A stretch of DNA of 64,000 bases from Candidatus Schekmanbacteria bacterium (lineage in GTDB: Bacteria > CSSED10-310 > JACPHN01): positions 15,690 to 79,689 of the forward strand of contig JACPHN010000010.1 in NCBI GenBank assembly GCA_016188575.1. The letters run 5' to 3'. The notes under the pieces are model-generated. The model saw only the letters and a list, made by a program, of their open reading frames with translations. It had not been told where the DNA came from and ran no database searches. A program made the position numbers and the translations under genes. Positions within the stretch are counted from its first letter, which is position 1. Each line of letters starts with the position of its first letter. This document shows positions 20,429-60,370 of the stretch, in pieces.

Positions 20429-21445
20429 ATGCAGGTGCGTATGGACCGGCTTCCGGCGATTTCCCTTTCGGCACATCACAACTACGTTGCGTTCTTCCTC
20501 ACGCTCGCCTGCAATCTCAGGTGTGCGTACTGCATAAATCTCCACGACGGCGGCACGCGCTACGCCGTCGCCAAACGCAAGCACCTGGACACCGAAGAGT
20601 GGCTCCTGGCGATAGATCGCCTGCGGCTTCGCGCCGATCTTCCCTTGACTCTGCAGGGCGGGGAGCCCACGCTGAGCCGGAGCTTCTTTGCGCTCGCGCA
20701 GCGCGCCGACCCCGCGCTCAAGATGGATCTTCTGACCAACATGGGCTTCGACGTCGAAGAGCTCATCCGCAACGTGCCGGTCTCCCGCTTCGTAAGGGAA
20801 GCGCCCTATGCCGCGATTCGCGTCACCTACCACCCCGGCCAGAACGACATCGACGCGATTATCGAGAAGACCGTCAGACTTGAGGCCGCCGGCTTCCGCG
20901 TCGGCATCTACGGCATCCGCCATCCAGATCCGCACCTGCGATCCGAGCTGGAGCGCGCGGGCGACAAGTGTCTGGCGAGAGGTCTCGATTTTCGCTGGAA
21001 GGAGTTTCTCGGCTTGTGGCAAAACGCGCTTCACGGCACATACAAGTACGAAGGCGCAGTCAGCGGCCAGCCCTATCGCGGGTGCGAGTGCCGGACCACC
21101 GAGCTCATCGTCGACCCCGCGGGATACGTTTTCCGCTGCCACTCGGACCTCTACCGCGGTCGCGGTCCCATTGGCCACATCTTGGATCCGGGTTTCGACG
21201 CAGGTGCATTGGACGCGTTTCGGTACTGCGCATTTCTCGGCGACTGCAACCCGTGCGACGTCAAGGTCAAGACCAACCGGCTGCAAATCTTCGGTCACAC
21301 CAGTGTGGAGATCAGAAACGTTGATGCTGCCTACCTCACCTCCGCCACCGAGCGGGCGGAGGCGCACATCCGTCACCCCGGCACAGGCCGGTCCCCACTC
21401 TCACCCCGCGAGCGGGGGGAGACGGCTGACGGCGTCCACTCATGA
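20429..21445 (+). CDS. Radical SAM protein with C-terminal Cys cluster
   Basis: A 338-residue protein (ATG 20429; ATG 20441 is an alternative). The radical SAM cluster is CNLRCAYC with Cys28, Cys32 and Cys35, followed by LTLQGGEPTLS for SAM binding. A later C-x-C segment (GCECRTTELIVDPAGYVFRCHSD) and CNPCDVK resemble a SPASM-like auxiliary Fe-S site. The last ~22 residues (PGTGRSPLSPRERGE...) do not look like folded protein and coincide with a GC-rich palindromic repeat at 21390-21422. Reaction unknown; radical SAM enzymes in sugar clusters do dehydration, epimerisation or C-C chemistry. First gene of the plus-strand operon; the stop overlaps the next gene (ATGA). Confidence 0.85.
   Translation: MQVRMDRLPAISLSAHHNYVAFFLTLACNLRCAYCINLHDGGTRYAVAKRKHLDTEEWLLAIDRLRLRADLPLTLQGGEPTLSRSFFALAQRADPALKMDLLTNMGFDVEELIRNVPVSRFVREAPYAAIRVTYHPGQNDIDAIIEKTVRLEAAGFRVGIYGIRHPDPHLRSELERAGDKCLARGLDFRWKEFLGLWQNALHGTYKYEGAVSGQPYRGCECRTTELIVDPAGYVFRCHSDLYRGRGPIGHILDPGFDAGALDAFRYCAFLGDCNPCDVKVKTNRLQIFGHTSVEIRNVDAAYLTSATERAEAHIRHPGTGRSPLSPRERGETADGVHS
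21388..21424. repeat. GC-rich REP-like palindrome, copy A (reverse orientation)
   Basis: The core reads CACCCCGCGAGCGGGGGGAG, an inverted repeat with a 2-nt loop, with a TCCCCACTCTC arm on its left. Read on the minus strand it matches the other copies (CCCCCGC-NN-GCGGGG followed by a G-rich GTGGGG box). It lies inside the 3' end of the first radical SAM gene and is translated as its tail. Confidence 0.6.
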
Positions 21446-25189: not shown

Positions 25190-25852
25190 GTGGGCAGACT
25201 GCTAGACATCATCAATCCGCTGCATCGCTCGACCTCCCGCGACTACCTTGCGCGCATGATGGATCGGAAGGCCGAGTGCATGCGCGTCGCACGCCAATAC
25301 GGTCGGGACTTTTGGGATGGCGAGCGCCGGTACGGGTACGGCGGTTACGCCTACGACGGCCGCTGGCTCGCGGTCGCCGAACAACTCGCGGCGCAATTCG
25401 AGCTGCGTGACGATGCCGCCGTTCTCGATGTCGGTTGCGGCAAGGGCTTTCTCCTCTACGAGCTCTCGCGGGTTCTTCCTCGCGCCCGCCTGTGTGGGTT
25501 CGACGTCTCCCCCTACGCCCTCGCCGCGGCAAAGACCGAAATCCGCCGGAGCCTTTTCGCCCATCGCGCCCAGGACCCTTTTCCGTTCGCGAATCAACAG
25601 TTCGATCTCGTCATTTCCATCACGACACTTCACAACTTGCAGGTGTTCGACCTCGCGCAGGCTTTTTCCGAGATCGACCGCGTCGGGAAAAACGGCTTCA
25701 TCACGGTGGAGAGCTTCCGCACTGAGCAGGAGCTATTCAACCTGCAGTGTTGGGCGCTCACCTGCGAATCTTTCTACACACCGGAAGCCTGGGTGTGGCT
25801 CATGAATCATTTCGGATATCGCGGGGATTACGAGTTTATCTACTTCGAGTGA
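25190..25852 (+). CDS. Class I SAM-dependent methyltransferase
   Basis: A 220-residue protein starting at GTG two bases after the previous stop. Motif I is VLDVGCGKGFLLYELS (78-93), then an acidic GFDVSPYALAAAK for the SAM ribose, and FDLVISITTLHNL as motif IV. The N-terminal ~65 residues (DRKAECMRVARQYGRDFWDGERRYGYGGY) include a Y-G-Y-G-G-Y block seen in sugar-cluster methyltransferases. No membrane segment. Probably methylates a sugar intermediate or a small carboxylate in the same pathway; substrate unknown. Confidence 0.83.
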   Translation: MGRLLDIINPLHRSTSRDYLARMMDRKAECMRVARQYGRDFWDGERRYGYGGYAYDGRWLAVAEQLAAQFELRDDAAVLDVGCGKGFLLYELSRVLPRARLCGFDVSPYALAAAKTEIRRSLFAHRAQDPFPFANQQFDLVISITTLHNLQVFDLAQAFSEIDRVGKNGFITVESFRTEQELFNLQCWALTCESFYTPEAWVWLMNHFGYRGDYEFIYFE

Positions 25853-26979: not shown

Positions 26980-28040
26980 TACTCGATTCCGCTGCCGGTG
27001 ACATCGCGGAGCTGCTGAGCAAGATTTGCATCGCGCCCGAGGCGACGATTCGCGACGCCATGGAGGCGATTGCGCGCGGCGGTTTGCAGATCAGCCTGGT
27101 CGTCGACGGCGGGCGGCGGCTCGTTGGCACGGTCACCGACGGCGACATCCGCGTGGCGCTCCTCGCGGACGCCCGGATGAACGATCCTATCGGCCCGCGC
27201 TGCAACCGCGCCTACACCTGGGTGCACCGCGGCACCAGCCGCGCCGAGATCATCGACCTGATGAAGGCGCGATCGATCAATCAGGTTCCGATCCTGGACG
27301 ACGACCATCGGCTCGTCGGACTGCAGCATCTGCAGCAACTCATCGGCATCCGCAAGAAGCCCAACTGGGCGGTGATCATGGCCGGGGGGCGCGGCCAACG
27401 CCTGCAGCCGCTTACTGACACCACTCCGAAACCCATGCTCAGGGTGGCCGGCCGGCCGATCCTGGAGCGGCTCATCCTGCACTTGGTGGGCTATGGAGTC
27501 ACGCGAATCTTTCTTGCCGTGAGCTACAAGGCGGATGTGATCGAGAGCTACTTCGGCGCCGGCGAGCGGTTTGGGTGCCACCTTCGCTACCTGAAGGAGC
27601 AGCGGCCGCTGGGCACGGGCGGCGGGCTCGCGCTCCTGCCGGAAGCGCCCGAGCACCCGTTGCTGGTGCTGAACGGAGATCTCATCACCCAGTTCGACGT
27701 GGAAGCGCTGCTCGAGTTTCACCGTGCCCAGGGCGCCGCGGCAACGGTTGGGGTCGGCGAATACCAGCACCTGGTGCCGTACGGTGTCCTCACACTGGAA
27801 GACGGGCGCGTCAGCGGCATCGCGGAGAAACCGCTGCTGGTCCTTGCGGTCAACGCGGGAATCTACGTCCTGGAACCGCATCTGCTGGCGCGAATCCCCG
27901 CAGATCGCGCCATGGGACTTCCGGACGTGCTTGCGGACTGCCTCGACCGGCGCGAGCGCGTGGCCGGCTATCGCATCTCGGGTGATTGGATGGATCTCGG
28001 AACCAAGGCACAGCTCGAGCTGGCGCGGGGGGCGGTGTGA
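26976..28040 (+). CDS. ptmE: PtmE-like CBS-domain sugar-1-phosphate nucleotidyltransferase
   Basis: A 354-residue protein. Residues ~15-125 form a CBS pair (ISLVVDGGRRLVGTVTDGDIRVALL and QVPILDDDHRLVGLQ). Residues 131-354 are a nucleotidyltransferase with MAGGRGQRLQPLTDTTPKPML (signature G-G-x-G-x-R-L-x-P-L-T), VLNGDLIT and a final DWMDLGTK. In Campylobacter jejuni PtmE uses this CBS + NTP-transferase layout to make GDP-linked glucosamine for legionaminic acid. The CBS part may sense nucleotides. Its presence next to NeuB- and LegB-like genes argues for a GDP-type route here. Start overlaps the previous stop; its own stop overlaps the next start (GTGA). Confidence 0.82.
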   Translation: MILDSAAGDIAELLSKICIAPEATIRDAMEAIARGGLQISLVVDGGRRLVGTVTDGDIRVALLADARMNDPIGPRCNRAYTWVHRGTSRAEIIDLMKARSINQVPILDDDHRLVGLQHLQQLIGIRKKPNWAVIMAGGRGQRLQPLTDTTPKPMLRVAGRPILERLILHLVGYGVTRIFLAVSYKADVIESYFGAGERFGCHLRYLKEQRPLGTGGGLALLPEAPEHPLLVLNGDLITQFDVEALLEFHRAQGAAATVGVGEYQHLVPYGVLTLEDGRVSGIAEKPLLVLAVNAGIYVLEPHLLARIPADRAMGLPDVLADCLDRRERVAGYRISGDWMDLGTKAQLELARGAV

Positions 28041-30148
28041 GCGCGCCTGGGACTGCGACGCCACGCCTGCCGAGGACGGCAGTCATCGGCGCCACCGGCT
28101 ACCTGGGTCGCGCGCTCTACCAGGCGCACCTGGCCGCGGATGCGCGCACGGTGGGCACGAGCCGGGCGCCGCGGCGCGGCGGCGAGCTGCTCCCCCTCGA
28201 CCTTGCCGACAAGCGCACGCTGCGACCTCGGCTGCGGGAGCTGGGGATCGAAGAGGCAATCATTGCCGCCGGGATCGCCACTGTCGCGCGCTGCGAGGCG
28301 GAGCAGGCGCGTTCGGCAGAAATCAACGTCACCGGCACCCAGCAGCTTCTGGAAGCGTTGCGCGAGCAAGAGATCCGGCCGGTGTTTATCTCGACGGATC
28401 TCGTGTTCGACGGTGAGCGCGGCGCATACACCGAAATCGATGAACCCCACCCCATAGTCGCGTACGGGGAGCAGAAGCGCGCCGTGGAGCAGCTTTTGGC
28501 GGAGATGTTTGACGGCCGAGCGCTGATTCTCCGGGTCAGCAAGGTTTTCTCCACCACCAGGGGTGATGGCACGCTGCTCGATGAGCTGGCAGCCACGTGG
28601 GCGGCGGGTGGCGTGGTGCGGGCAGCGGTCGATCAACGCTTCAACCCGATCTTGCGGGAGGACTTCGTGCGTGTCGTGCTGCATCTCCAGCGCCTGTGCA
28701 CCTGCGGGCTGGTGCATCTGTGTGGGGACAATGCGTGGACCCGCCATGAGCTTGCGGAGCGGCTGGCGGCACGGCTTTCAGTGGCTCCTTCGAGGCTGGA
28801 GAGAATCGCCATTCGCGATCTCGGTATCGGCCCGGTGCGGCCGCGCGATACGACGATGAGCAACCGCCGACTGCGGCAACTCTACCGCGAACCGTTCGCC
28901 GACATGGAGGCATGTCTTGACGAGGTGGCCCGGCAATATGGCGCGCCGGTTTTCCTCCCACCCCGGCCCTCCTCTCCCCCCGCGGGCGGGGGGTGGCAGG
29001 GGTGGGGGCTGCCGGCTCCGGGCGGCGCTGAAGCGGCCCGTTCCCCGTTCCGCGTGCCCTTTCTCGACCTGAGAGTGGTGGATCCCGTCGAGCGCCGGGG
29101 CTTGCTGGATGCAGTCGATCGGATCCTGGCGCACGGGCGGGTCGTCGGGGGGCCGGAGGTGGCGGACCTGGAGGCGGAGCTCGCAGCGCGCTGTGAGCGG
29201 CGCTTCGCGTGTGGGGTCGGTTCAGGGACCGCCGCGTTGACCCTGGCGCTCGGCGGCCTCGGCGTCGGGCCCGGAGACGAGGTCGTCGTGCCCGCATTGA
29301 GCTTTGTGGCCACGGCAAACGCGGTGGCGCTGCTGGGCGCTCGTCCGGTCTTCGCCGACATCCGCGCCGACCTCAATATCGACCCGGAGTCCGCGGCGGC
29401 GTGTATCGGGCCGCGGACGCGAGCGGTCGTCGTCGTTCACTACGCAGGGAGGTGCGGCGACATGGCCGCGCTGACTACTCTTTGCGAAGATCGCCGCGTC
29501 GCTCTGGTCGAGGACGCGGCGCAGGCGTGGGGCGCGCGCTACTGCGGCCGGCCCGCCGGGTCGTTTGGGCTCAGCGCCGCCTTGAGCATGAACGCCATGA
29601 AAATCCTCGCCGCGTGCGGTGAGTGCGGCGCCGTGCTGACAGATTGCGAGGAGATCCGCGCCCGAATCGGAGCGCTCACGTACAACGGCATCGTGAACAA
29701 GGAAATCTGCCAGCAGCCGAGCTCGAACTACCGTATGGATACGCTGCAGGCCGCAATGCTCCTTTATCGCCTGCAGGGCGTCGAAAAGGTGATTGCGCGG
29801 CGGCGCCAGATCGCTCAATACTACGACGACGCCCTCGGCGATATCCTCCAGACGCCGCCCAGATCCGCCGAGTCGTTCGATGTCTACTATTCCTACATCG
29901 TGCGTACGGAGCATCGAGATGATCTCCTCGCGCATCTCGCGGCGCACGGCGTCGAAGCGAAAGTCCAGCATCCCTTGCTGATGTGCCAACAACCAGCCTA
30001 CCGGGACCGCGGTGCCCCGGCCGTGTCGAACGCCGATCATCTTGTGAGCAGAATCCTGTCGCTGCCCGTTAACGAAAAACTCTCCGACGAACAGACGGAA
30101 ATCGTCGTCGCGGGGGTTCGCGGCTTCCTGGGAAAGGGTGGCGCATGA
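28037..30148 (+). CDS. Fusion of RmlD-like SDR and DegT/DnrJ aminotransferase joined by a repeat-derived linker
   Basis: A 703-residue protein (GTG start in GTGA overlap). Residues ~10-300 are an RmlD-like short-chain reductase: AVIGATGYLGRAL, FISTDLVFDG and catalytic YGEQKRAVE (Y-x-x-x-K). Residues ~340-703 are a DegT-family aminotransferase: GVGSGTAALTLAL, VEDAAQAWGARY and SMNAMKIL with Schiff-base Lys522. The ~35-residue linker (PPRPSSPPAGGG... ) is encoded by a GC-rich REP-like palindrome at 28969-29008, so the fusion seems to have formed by read-through of a repeat between two genes. Each domain looks complete. Reduction plus amination of a keto-sugar nucleotide would be a sensible combined activity. 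An undetected frameshift is possible but the frame is open throughout. Confidence 0.82.
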   Translation: MSAPGTATPRLPRTAVIGATGYLGRALYQAHLAADARTVGTSRAPRRGGELLPLDLADKRTLRPRLRELGIEEAIIAAGIATVARCEAEQARSAEINVTGTQQLLEALREQEIRPVFISTDLVFDGERGAYTEIDEPHPIVAYGEQKRAVEQLLAEMFDGRALILRVSKVFSTTRGDGTLLDELAATWAAGGVVRAAVDQRFNPILREDFVRVVLHLQRLCTCGLVHLCGDNAWTRHELAERLAARLSVAPSRLERIAIRDLGIGPVRPRDTTMSNRRLRQLYREPFADMEACLDEVARQYGAPVFLPPRPSSPPAGGGWQGWGLPAPGGAEAARSPFRVPFLDLRVVDPVERRGLLDAVDRILAHGRVVGGPEVADLEAELAARCERRFACGVGSGTAALTLALGGLGVGPGDEVVVPALSFVATANAVALLGARPVFADIRADLNIDPESAAACIGPRTRAVVVVHYAGRCGDMAALTTLCEDRRVALVEDAAQAWGARYCGRPAGSFGLSAALSMNAMKILAACGECGAVLTDCEEIRARIGALTYNGIVNKEICQQPSSNYRMDTLQAAMLLYRLQGVEKVIARRRQIAQYYDDALGDILQTPPRSAESFDVYYSYIVRTEHRDDLLAHLAAHGVEAKVQHPLLMCQQPAYRDRGAPAVSNADHLVSRILSLPVNEKLSDEQTEIVVAGVRGFLGKGGA
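28965..29010 (+). repeat. GC-rich REP-like palindrome, copy B, inside the fused gene
   Basis: CTCCCCCCGCGGGCGGGGGG forms a hairpin, followed by TGGCAGGGGTGGGGG. It shares with copies C, D and E the stem plus the downstream AGGG-TGGGGG box. It lies exactly between the SDR and aminotransferase domains and is translated as the Pro/Gly linker. Confidence 0.75.
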
Positions 30149-30714
30149 GCGCGATATTCCTCGGCCACGCTGACCTGGTTTCGGTGCGCCAGGACCACAT
30201 CTCACCATTGCTCGAGCTCGCCCGGCGCAGCCCGTTGCGGCGCGCTCGCTACTGCTTCCACGCCGACCACGCCAGCCGCGTCCACGAGATGCTCATCGCG
30301 TTCTGCGGCGATTCCTTCGTTTCGCCGCACCGGCACGAAGACAAGGTCGAGTCGTTCCACCTCGTCCAAGGCGAGCTCGCGGTGGTGTTCTTTGCGGACG
30401 ATGGCACTCCGACCGGTCGCCTGGACATGGGGCCAGCCGCCTCCGGAAAGCCGTTCTACTATCGCCTCAACAGGATGTTGTGGCACACCGTCGTGCCGCT
30501 TGCGGAAATCGTCGTGCTCCACGAAACCACCAGTGGCCCATTCTCGCCCGGGGGCACGGAATACGCCCCATGGGGTCCGGCGGAAAGCGACGAGACCGGC
30601 TGCCGCATCTTCACGAAGCGCGCGCTCGCGGCCCCCCCCATCTTTCCTTTCCCCGCCCCCGAGCTGCTCGCGGAGACCGCGGCAGCGGCGCCTGCGGAGC
30701 CGCGCCGGCGATGA
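30145..30714 (+). CDS. wbuC: WbuC-family cupin protein
   Basis: A 189-residue protein. RARYCFHADHASRVHEMLIAF, then PHRHEDKVESFHLVQGELAVVFF (cupin metal ligands His62, His64, Glu69) and RMLWHTVVPLAEIVVLHETTSGPF with APWGP follow the WbuC pattern. WbuC proteins occur in O-antigen clusters; they are cupin metalloproteins whose reaction is not established. This member has a C-terminal Ala/Pro-rich tail of about 30 residues. Both ends overlap neighbours by ATGA, so it is an integral part of the operon. A sugar isomerase or epimerase activity is only a guess. Confidence 0.8.
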   Translation: MSAIFLGHADLVSVRQDHISPLLELARRSPLRRARYCFHADHASRVHEMLIAFCGDSFVSPHRHEDKVESFHLVQGELAVVFFADDGTPTGRLDMGPAASGKPFYYRLNRMLWHTVVPLAEIVVLHETTSGPFSPGGTEYAPWGPAESDETGCRIFTKRALAAPPIFPFPAPELLAETAAAAPAEPRRR

Positions 30715-31826
30715 CGCTATACACCGACAACCTGAGCGGCACGGCGCTGCAGGCAGAGCTCGACGACATTCGCCGCCGCCTGGGGCTCGCGGCGCTCGAT
30801 GAGGCTCTGCGTTTTCCCCAGTACTTCCAGATCGAGACGGTCCGCGTATGCAACGCTCGTTGCCCGTTTTGCGCCGTTGCGCAGTGGGACAAGACCGTAC
30901 CCGTCATGCCCGACCCGCTCTTCGAGAGGATCGCCGCGGAGCTCGCAGAGCACGCCGATTGGGTTCGCGTCGTCATGGTGCAGCGCGCGGGGGAGCCGCT
31001 CATGGACAAGAAGATCGTGGCGCGGGTAAAGCGCCTCAAGGACGCGGGAATCAGGCGCGTGACCATGTCCACCAACGCGGCGCTGCTGACCGAAGCCAAA
31101 GCGGTCGCGCTGCTCGAGGCGGGGCTGGACGAGATCATGTTTTCGATCGACTCGATTGAGCGGGAAGAATACGAAAAGCTGCGCGTGCGCCTCAGCTTCG
31201 ACACGGTCATGGCAAACATCCGGCGCTTCTTCGCGCTGCGGAACCGACTCCGCCCAGATTTTCTGATTCGCGTCCGCGGAGTATGTTTCCTTGATCCGGC
31301 AAGCTCCCACGATCGCCCGCGCATCTCGCGGTGGCTGCACGCGTGGGACGATCAGCGCCTCCCCCACGACCGGATCTACTTCAAACGGCCGCACAACTGG
31401 GGCAATCAGCATGCCTTCGACGGCGTCCCGCCGTATGAGGAGGTTTTTCACCCGTGCGTGCTGCCATGGTCGACGCTACACGTCACGACCATGGGCCTCG
31501 TTCCGCTCTGCCCCCAGGACTTCGACGCCAGGATGAGCTTGGGCGACGTCAATCGCGACAGCATCGCTGCGGTGTGGCGCGGCGAGGGATTCGCCCGGGT
31601 CAGACGCCTACACCGGGAGGGAAAGCGCGGGGAGATCTCGTTTTGTCGCGGCTGCCGCCTCTTCGACGAGGACGCGCACCTCGAGAAGAAGCTTGATGCG
31701 CTCGCCGACGAGAGCGGAAGCGACGCCCCGCTCCCCGCAGGCGCGCGAGTGGGAAGCGACCTCTCTCTCCCTCCCCCCGCAAGCGGGGGAGGGCCAGGGT
31801 GGGGGGACCGCAATGAAGCTACCTGA
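30711..31826 (+). CDS. Radical SAM/SPASM protein with repeat-derived C-terminal tail
   Basis: A 371-residue protein. CNARCPFC gives Cys47, Cys51 and Cys54; VVMVQRAGEPLMDKK is the SAM block; VTMSTNAALL and EIMFSIDSI follow. CVLPWSTLHVTTMGLVPLCPQDF and ISFCRGCRLF are typical SPASM ligands. It closely follows the architecture of sugar/peptide-modifying radical SAM enzymes. The last ~25 residues (SLPPPASGGGPGWGDRNEAT) are translated from a REP-like palindrome (copy C) that directly precedes the NeuB start, so this tail is probably not functional. It overlaps the NeuB gene by 14 bp. Confidence 0.86.
   Translation: MTLYTDNLSGTALQAELDDIRRRLGLAALDEALRFPQYFQIETVRVCNARCPFCAVAQWDKTVPVMPDPLFERIAAELAEHADWVRVVMVQRAGEPLMDKKIVARVKRLKDAGIRRVTMSTNAALLTEAKAVALLEAGLDEIMFSIDSIEREEYEKLRVRLSFDTVMANIRRFFALRNRLRPDFLIRVRGVCFLDPASSHDRPRISRWLHAWDDQRLPHDRIYFKRPHNWGNQHAFDGVPPYEEVFHPCVLPWSTLHVTTMGLVPLCPQDFDARMSLGDVNRDSIAAVWRGEGFARVRRLHREGKRGEISFCRGCRLFDEDAHLEKKLDALADESGSDAPLPAGARVGSDLSLPPPASGGGPGWGDRNEAT
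31761..31808 (+). repeat. GC-rich REP-like palindrome, copy C, at radical SAM / NeuB junction
   Basis: CCTCCCCCCGCAAGCGGGGG with a following AGGGCCAGGGTGGGGGG. It is the best-formed copy in the window. It sits just before the NeuB start codon at 31813, so the hairpin could also affect NeuB translation. Confidence 0.75.
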
Positions 31827-39068: not shown

Positions 39069-39396
39069 ACAGCCGAGCGGGTGGGGTTTTCGTGGAGGAA
39101 GAAGGTGTAGGATTCTCTGAGCTCATCCGAAATGCGCCAGCCATCATTTTGTGTGACCATGCCCATGAAGAACCTCCCGAGCCACGGTGTGCCGCCAGCC
39201 ACGGCAGGTGCAACATCCCTCGCATGTCTTTCGCCCTCCCCGAGGCGGATAGGTAGCCGGGTGCCCACTTCATCTGTGAGCTGCCGACGGCGGCGAGTTT
39301 GCCGTGGACATCGCCGTAGCCATAGCCCTCGCCCTGAGCGTACCGCGCAACCAGCGGCGGCCGGGAACATCGCTCAACGCCCACTGGGATAGGCTC
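39069..39396 (-). pseudogene. IS5-like element relic: left end and transposase N-terminal fragment
   Basis: The outer end GCCCACTGGGATAGGCTC at 39379-39396 is an imperfect copy (17/18) of the terminal repeat of the element at 43785-44182, and the next 14 bases inward are identical. Reading leftward on the minus strand, MVTQNDGWRISDELRE (from 39160) resembles the start of IS5-family transposases (GWRI-x-D-x-L-W-E). The frame breaks soon after and no right end is seen, so only a truncated 5' part remains. It fills the gap between the hypothetical gene ending at 39058 and the hybrid kinase gene. Confidence 0.6.
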
Positions 39397-43784: not shown

Positions 43785-44182
43785 GAGCCTATCCCAGTAG
43801 GCCCGTAGCTCGCCAGGGAATAAGGCCAGCGTGAAATGCAGTTGGGCTAGATAGTTCCGAGGTTTTTGTCCCAACGTACCAAGCTCGCCCGAAAGCGGTT
43901 CATCCCACTGTGCAACCGCTCCGCGACCCACCGCCGTGCCTTGCACCCCCTCAGTCTTGATGGCCGGCCAGGAACCTCGGAGCTCTTGATGAGGAAAGGT
44001 ACACCGAAGGCAAGCCGATGCTGTACAGACTCGTTTGCTGGTGAAGATGAGCGCACCATGAGGTCGAGCCAGCGGACCCCCACACGGCCACGCCGAGGGC
44101 CAGGGCGAAGGCGACGGCCAGGGCTACGAGGGGAGCTCCGGAGCGGACAGGAACATCGCTCAACGCCTACTGGGATAGGCTC
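43785..44182 (-). mobile_element. Internally deleted IS5-like element with perfect terminal inverted repeats
   Basis: GAGCCTATCCCAGTAGGC at 43785-43802 is exactly inverted at 44165-44182 (18 of 18). Between them 398 bp remain. On the minus strand the region encodes the C-terminal end of an IS5-family transposase (RRWVAERLHSGMNRFRASLVRWDKN), followed in another frame by NYLAQLHFTLALF, so the ending is frameshifted and most of the transposase is deleted. With intact ends but no full transposase it is a MITE-like derivative, movable only in trans. The expected short target duplication is not clear. Confidence 0.75.
43803..43960 (-). pseudogene. Frameshifted C-terminal fragment of IS5-family transposase
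   Basis: The W-V-x-E-R-x-H-S-x-M-N-R-F-R block near 43930-43870 is the conserved third catalytic region of IS5 transposases (with the Glu of DDE). A shift of frame around 43855 separates it from the following Y-L-A-x-L-H-x-x-x-A-L motif. The upstream two catalytic Asp regions are missing. Confidence 0.6.
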
Positions 44183-59798: not shown

Positions 59799-60370
59799 CG
59801 CTCATGCTCCTTGTGTTGGCCGTCGCAATGACCTGAATCCACCGCGGACTCCATGTCGTCGCGACACTGCTCCCCTCCGTCTCCTCATCCCTCCCCGCTT
59901 GCGGGGCGAGGTGAGTCCATCCCCCCTCCCCCCGCCAGCGGGGGGAGGTAAGGTGGGGGGTCTTCGTGATAAGCTTTCGGCGCAGCTTGCAGTCGCAGCG
60001 GCGGTGGATTCGGAATGAGCGCTACGCTACCATCGCGGAGTCGATCCAGCAACGCTTCAGCGGTGCCCATGTCCACGCGACCCAACCGGCGCCCGTATCT
60101 ACCAGGTGGCCTCATCCATTCGTCAGCCGGTCCGAAACCCCGCCCTTCAACGTGCGAGTGACATTACTCGTGTCCGGCAGGTCCGCGGTTGGGTCGCCGA
60201 TGGCTCTAAACCAAGCGCAAGGTAGAGTGCCGTGTCCGGCTGCCGTCCCTTGCGGCGCCGATGGGGCAGGGACTTTCCCGTCTGGCGGTTTCCGGGACAC
60301 GCTCGCTTGCGGAGGGCACAGAGAGGTAGCAAGTGGCAGCATGAGAACCACTAATAAGGGAGAGTTGCTC
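59799..60370. other. Gene-free stretch containing a doubled REP-like repeat
   Basis: About 570 bp upstream of the kinase-like gene and before the transposase relic. Repeat copy E lies at 59882-59970. From 59970 to 60370 I see no gene; the sequence before the relic's ATG may be the decayed left end of that IS. Confidence 0.4.
59882..59970. repeat. GC-rich REP-like palindromes, copies E1 and E2 (tandem)
   Basis: E1: CCCTCCCCGCTTGCGGGGCG followed by AGGTGAG. E2: CCTCCCCCCGCCAGCGGGGG followed by GAGGTAAGGTGGGGGG. Two units in the same orientation, intergenic, upstream of the kinase-like gene. The E2 right arm resembles the decayed copy near 48209-48234. Confidence 0.75.

Follow-up and report, generated by a model that had tools for sequence, protein, structure and literature searches.

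A palindromic repeat that has spread through the genome of one uncultured bacterium is carried in frame by many of that genome's proteins, and one of its copies encodes the linker between two complete enzyme domains. The fusion is found at 28037-30148 of the window, which is the whole stretch of DNA that was analyzed (64,000 nucleotides); the frame runs without a stop and its translated product has 703 residues. We consider it somewhat probable that neighboring SDR and DegT genes, in a tight surface-sugar cluster, were fused when the spreading palindrome took over the junction between them. The wider in-frame spread of the one palindrome through this genome's proteins is a stronger and more interesting result than the single fusion, and spreading DNA appears to be reshaping the proteins of this organism.

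Both domains of the 703-residue protein had been described as complete, and Pfam searches bear this out. The SDR half (28037..28954, plus strand, residues 1-306) starts with a GTG that overlaps the upstream stop by 4 nt. It belongs to the RmlD-type extended SDR family of NAD-dependent sugar-nucleotide reductases/epimerases: PF04321 (RmlD_sub_bind) matches residues 16-299 (E = 2.8e-37) across nearly the entire model, and the motifs GATGYLG and YxxxK can be read from the translation. The second half (29054..30148, plus strand), from V340 (GTG) to the stop, is a DegT/DnrJ/EryC1-type PLP aminotransferase. PF01041 matches residues 357-694 (E = 5.7e-90), covering model positions 8-359 of 360, and the sequence MNAMKIL aligns to the lysine region of 2oga and WbpE, which places the PLP-site lysine. 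In NCBIfam, the SDR half scores 119.7 bits to the dTDP-4-dehydrorhamnose reductase equivalog TIGR01214 (cutoff 224). The best score of the aminotransferase half to equivalogs with defined substrates (PseC, ArnB and others) is 193 bits, for PseC, with a cutoff of 423.5. Because the scores fall under every equivalog cutoff, the substrates of both halves are left unassigned; by these scores, the SDR half is placed by family fold only. Neighboring genes encode a split transketolase, a CBS-nucleotidyltransferase, a WbuC-type cupin, radical-SAM proteins and a NeuB synthase, a set that suggests a surface-sugar (nonulosonate-type) gene cluster. Genes overlap by 4 nt at several junctions in this cluster.

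The linker occupies about residues 303-339. Residues ~303-328 (about ..APVFLPPRPSSPPAGGGWQGWGLPA..) come from an imperfect palindrome at 28945..29016. The next 11-12 codons, from 29017..29053 or so (37 nt, plus strand), encode PGGAEAARSPF, which is not clearly repeat-derived and is missing from stand-alone homologs. The core sequence of the repeat family, CTCCCCCCGCNNGCGGGGG, is matched at 28974-28992 with 0 mismatches. With up to 2 mismatches allowed, the core is matched 9 times in the window, at about 5 places, compared to 0.15 expected from shuffles. The 9.2 Mb genome (G000, 275 contigs) has 398 forward and 392 reverse matches, where a reversed control has 3 and 5; forward and reverse matches represent mostly the same palindromic places, or roughly 400 copies. 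BLAST with 60 nt of linker DNA finds other genomic copies, the best at 89% over 36 nt (E = 2e-5). The core match, the genomic counts and the BLAST copies uphold the claim of the preliminary description that a palindromic repeat encodes the linker. Its further claim, that the repeat lacks stops in the linker frame, holds more broadly: TAA, TAG and TGA are missing from all six frames of the palindrome.

The window has a GC content of 65%, and the hairpin predicted for 28945-29016 (-56 kcal/mol) is no stronger than base composition gives (z = -0.92 against shuffles), as might be expected if the linker were ordinary GC-rich coding sequence whose resemblance to the repeat is accidental. Such a resemblance is extremely improbable given the exact core match, and the shuffle, genome and BLAST counts rule it out. 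The same z-score leaves the hairpin unsupported as a specially selected RNA structure. The codon-usage score of the fused frame is the best or near-best throughout; it drops from 0.12 to -0.08 (background) over the palindrome and then recovers to 0.2, as expected for foreign DNA within a coding frame. The tryptic peptide of the fusion that spans the seam is QYGAPVFLPPRPSSPPAGGGWQGWGLPAPGGAEAAR.

Judged by core counts, expansion of the palindrome is specific to the lineage of the source genome and near background in relatives. Seven same-phylum genomes have 0-12 core matches each, and genomes that carry homologs of the fusion have counts close to the control, the highest being 24 (G036). Positions relative to genes were taken from 97 copies in about 0.69 Mb of sequence picked around repeats and the window, with genes called by a simple custom codon model; the resulting counts describe a sample and not a census. 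In this sample 75 of 97 copies are intergenic and 22 lie inside called genes, 16 of these more than 30 residues away from both gene ends. Peptides that recur where the repeat is translated include PPLAGGG, LPPRAGGG, SPPPADEG and PPASGGG. The longer arm TCACGAAG, the feature that bears on a comparison with MITEs and their terminal inverted repeats and target-site duplications, occurs in 18 of the 97 copies (control 0.3%). About a fifth of copies in the genome have longer arms, TCACGAAG/CTTCGTGA, and others occur in CTGTTCACC..GGTGAACAG surroundings; from these differences, the repeat may comprise several sub-families. Another type of repeat in the window, a 40-nt direct repeat with 93% identity, GCGGCCGGGAACATCGCTCAACGCCCACTGGGATAGGCTC, is found at 39357-39396 and 44143-44182.

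Other copies in the window had been described as lying between genes. This appears correct for two adjacent copies at 59885..59965 (core pair 59892-59947), and is incorrect for two more that encode C-termini and belong to the same cluster as the fusion. For the radical-SAM gene 30711-31826, the copy at 31766..31808 (core at about 31771) supplies the C-terminal tail (..LSLPPPASGGGPGWG..), the last ~20 residues of the protein (..LSLPPPASGGGPGWGDRNEAT and stop). The copy stops just short of the NeuB start at 31813, which the radical-SAM gene overlaps, and the NeuB frame is also stop-free through it. The other (21398..21423, core at about 21400) supplies the C-terminus of gene 20429-21445, beside a junction with a 4-nt overlap. 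Read from their frames, both look like fusions that failed only through mismatched frames. Since other cluster junctions overlap by 4 nt and these two copies extend C-termini there, such junctions are among the places where the repeat lands.

Tails of this kind also fit a different reading of 28037-30148, in which a sequencing or assembly error, a 1-base indel in the runs of C or G, hides an SDR with a repeat-encoded tail and a separate aminotransferase that begins at GTG 29054. The palindrome is homopolymer-rich and the assembly is a draft in 275 contigs; frames shifted at this point stop just downstream, at 29029 or 29070. Against such an error, the two arms of the palindrome mirror each other (6 C and 6 G), the repeat, itself short, is far from the ends of its 79.7 kb contig, and twelve or more further copies in mid-gene positions stay in frame. 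A search before GTG 29054, the start for an aminotransferase alone, found no Shine-Dalgarno-like sequence. We regard the error as improbable.

The closest homologs of each half, 39-48% identical, are single genes that end or start at the seam, and Pfam confirms their single-domain architecture. For the SDR half these are L141 from genome G292 (41%, 305 aa), with the end ...CISEVAAAWRGGPA (final residues ...EVAAAWRGGPA), and L142 from genome G183 (39%), with the end ...VAENWKEGPPIQKR (final residues ...KEGPPIQKR). Their alignments with the fusion extend as far as ...CLDEVARQYG, where the palindrome starts. For the aminotransferase half they are L182 from G368 (48%), which begins MTWKIPFLDLR, and L183 from G318 (47%), which begins MDVSFLDLR; stand-alone aminotransferases begin at fusion residue ~340. 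As the nearest homologs end or start at the seam, sequence comparison indicates that the halves began as separate genes and that the repeat sits where they meet. The preliminary description, which took two operon neighbors to have been fused by the repeat and looked to repeat-free pairs of genes in relatives for confirmation, is borne out as to the separate genes and not as to their adjacency or the repeat as cause.

Side-by-side separate orthologs of the two genes were found in none of the genomes searched, and in G183 the two lie ~22 kb apart. Relatives of the methyltransferase at 25190 of the window are present in both G292 and G183, and a split transketolase also occurs in G183. Among 386 genomes searched, no related fusion of these two subfamilies turned up. 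A same-phylum search (7 species) gave no strong SDR match, a scan of genome contigs with the fusion as query gave only two distant aminotransferases, and the phyla of G183 and G292 (3 and 2 genomes) gave nothing new. No plasmid record covered 80% of the fusion query.

The explanation we prefer builds on the open frame, the two complete domains, the identity of the linker as repeat and the separate genes of the nearest homologs. We infer that the SDR and aminotransferase genes were adjacent, and the repeat is the likely cause of their fusion. A copy of the GC-rich palindrome would have landed at their junction, removing or bypassing the SDR stop. Because the repeat has no stop triplet in any frame, ribosomes would translate ~24 codons of repeat and another 12 before reaching the aminotransferase. 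More generally, a copy inserted into a reading frame or over a stop would, if its net length is in phase, add a flexible Pro/Gly-rich peptide without truncation. The product would be one two-domain protein of ~75 kDa with a flexible Pro/Gly-rich linker, acting on a nucleotide sugar probably by keto-reduction or epimerization and by transamination. Copies carried in frame within genes that have domains on both sides count in favor of this explanation. Counting against it, besides the missing neighboring orthologs, is the usual location of repeats in wide gaps: same-strand junctions in the sampled stretches have a median length of 430 nt with a repeat and 42.5 nt without, so repeats in junctions as tight as those of this cluster are uncommon. 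The case for the fusion draws on the sequence of a single genome.

Elsewhere in the genome, the repeat interrupts conserved proteins in frame, as shown by alignment to homologs that lack the insert. A GT2 glycosyltransferase (L048:446-1873, G000:C128) has a repeat-holding insertion of ~49 residues in its catalytic domain, after the position aligned to 6yv7 residue 102. A Ser/Thr kinase-TPR protein (L213:4249-6909, G000:C225), aligned with a solved protein, has ~70 extra residues, holding the repeat, within its kinase domain; another copy lies close to the C-terminus of the protein. By these alignments, there are at least two in-frame interruptions of catalytic domains. Pfam context places further copies between or within the domains of a receiver-kinase, an AAA-kinase-TPR protein and three PKS proteins, and between the N-terminal segment and main domain of an amino-acid ABC permease. 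The PKS proteins are encoded by three consecutive genes (L228:3210-18978, G000:C60), each with in-frame copies between or within domains. In the AAA-kinase-TPR protein (L210:2702-7378, G000:C207), one repeat flanks the kinase domain on each side. A pyruvate-kinase-like barrel (L088:874-1887, G000:C92) has a repeat-encoded stretch adjoining ..IESCAGL..VAACDDLGVQLG that by eye resembles a loop-like insertion, and a 1523-aa protein with 13 HAMP domains (L197:4733-9304, G000:C154) has a copy near its N-terminus.

SDR-DegT fusions free of the repeat occur as well, at L118:115-2430 (G157:C34) and at L091:3355-5712 (G002:C12), the latter from the phylum to which the window belongs. Like the fusion described here, they have an N-terminal SDR and a C-terminal DegT aminotransferase in one frame; they differ in their subfamilies, with 27-33% identity to the aminotransferase half, and in their linkers, and represent independent events. 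On present sequences, this kind of fusion is not unique, and the linker of 28037-30148 is. In a more distant SDR/DegT pair, L120 (G283:C4), no base separates the SDR stop TAA from the aminotransferase ATG, a state one step from fusion. A candidate fusion at L092 was rejected; its 778-aa frame has an aminotransferase match only, the SDR at that locus having an ORF of its own.

The repeat-free fusions show that SDR and DegT domains can be joined in another way. In the alternative they suggest, an ordinary short linker joined the two genes first; the palindrome was inserted there later and tolerated. Insertions into genes that are continuous in homologs, such as those in the GT2 and kinase domains, and the inter-domain stretches of the PKS, receiver-kinase and kinase-TPR proteins fit this order of events. 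The unfused state of the closest homologs of both halves, and the solitary occurrence of the fusion among the genomes searched, argue against it, and we think it rather unlikely.

Gene fusion is usually explained through loss of a stop or a spacer. A repeat open in all frames would be a route to fusion that also provides, in one step, a Pro/Gly linker ready for use. We offer, as a tentative view, that the palindrome, high in copy number and GC-rich in a bacterial phylum that has been little sampled, is a mobile linker-maker: open in all frames, it would insert within genes and between them, extend C-termini and enlarge loops of catalytic domains, and here have welded two neighboring genes into a bifunctional enzyme. 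The many further natural insertions in the same genome, in enzymes of known fold, could provide tests of the tolerance of proteins to such peptides. They could also test whether selfish palindromes are a source of new domain architectures in organisms other than Rickettsia.

Several families of palindromic elements invite comparison. REP/BIME elements carry GTAG and CGTC tags (PMC3733652) and are linked to RAYT genes (PMC2817692). The repeat described here is likewise a short, high-copy palindrome, found mostly between genes. It differs in that the tags are not enriched beside its copies (GTAG 10/97, CGTC 24/97, neither above control) and that only one of the eight Y1_Tnp (RAYT) genes has a copy within ~250 nt, about the chance number; it is therefore not classed as REP in the strict sense. 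The enterobacterial elements ERIC and RU-1, RU-2 and RU-3 can extend a C-terminus in frame with loss of the normal stop, as in amidase ECA3499 (Delihas 2007, PMC2759123), which resembles the copies at 21400 and 31771. They differ in sequence, and PMC2759123 describes no insertions within conserved domains and no joining of two complete enzymes.

The closest likeness in behavior is to the Rickettsia palindromic elements (RPEs), in-frame palindromes inside proteins (Ogata et al. 2000, with reviews in PMC2229807 and PMC10969869). Both are palindromic repeats of one genome, found between genes and also translated in frame in unrelated conserved proteins, where the extra peptide is tolerated. RPEs are elements of ~105-150 bp in Rickettsia, whereas the present repeat is GC-rich, has a core of ~20 nt and arms of ~70 nt, and belongs to another lineage with a genome of 9.2 Mb. 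The resemblance is one of behavior, and the host genomes differ in size and composition. Repeat-made linkers had been called seldom described. That is fair for a linker of two complete enzymes, of which we found no palindromic example in the open-access literature searched and none made by an RPE in the cited RPE papers; it is too broad for in-frame palindromes and C-terminal extensions, which are known (PMC2229807, PMC2759123, PMC10969869). The kind of phenomenon, RPE-like in-frame palindromes, is thus already known, and what differs here is the linking of two complete enzymes and the occurrence in another lineage.
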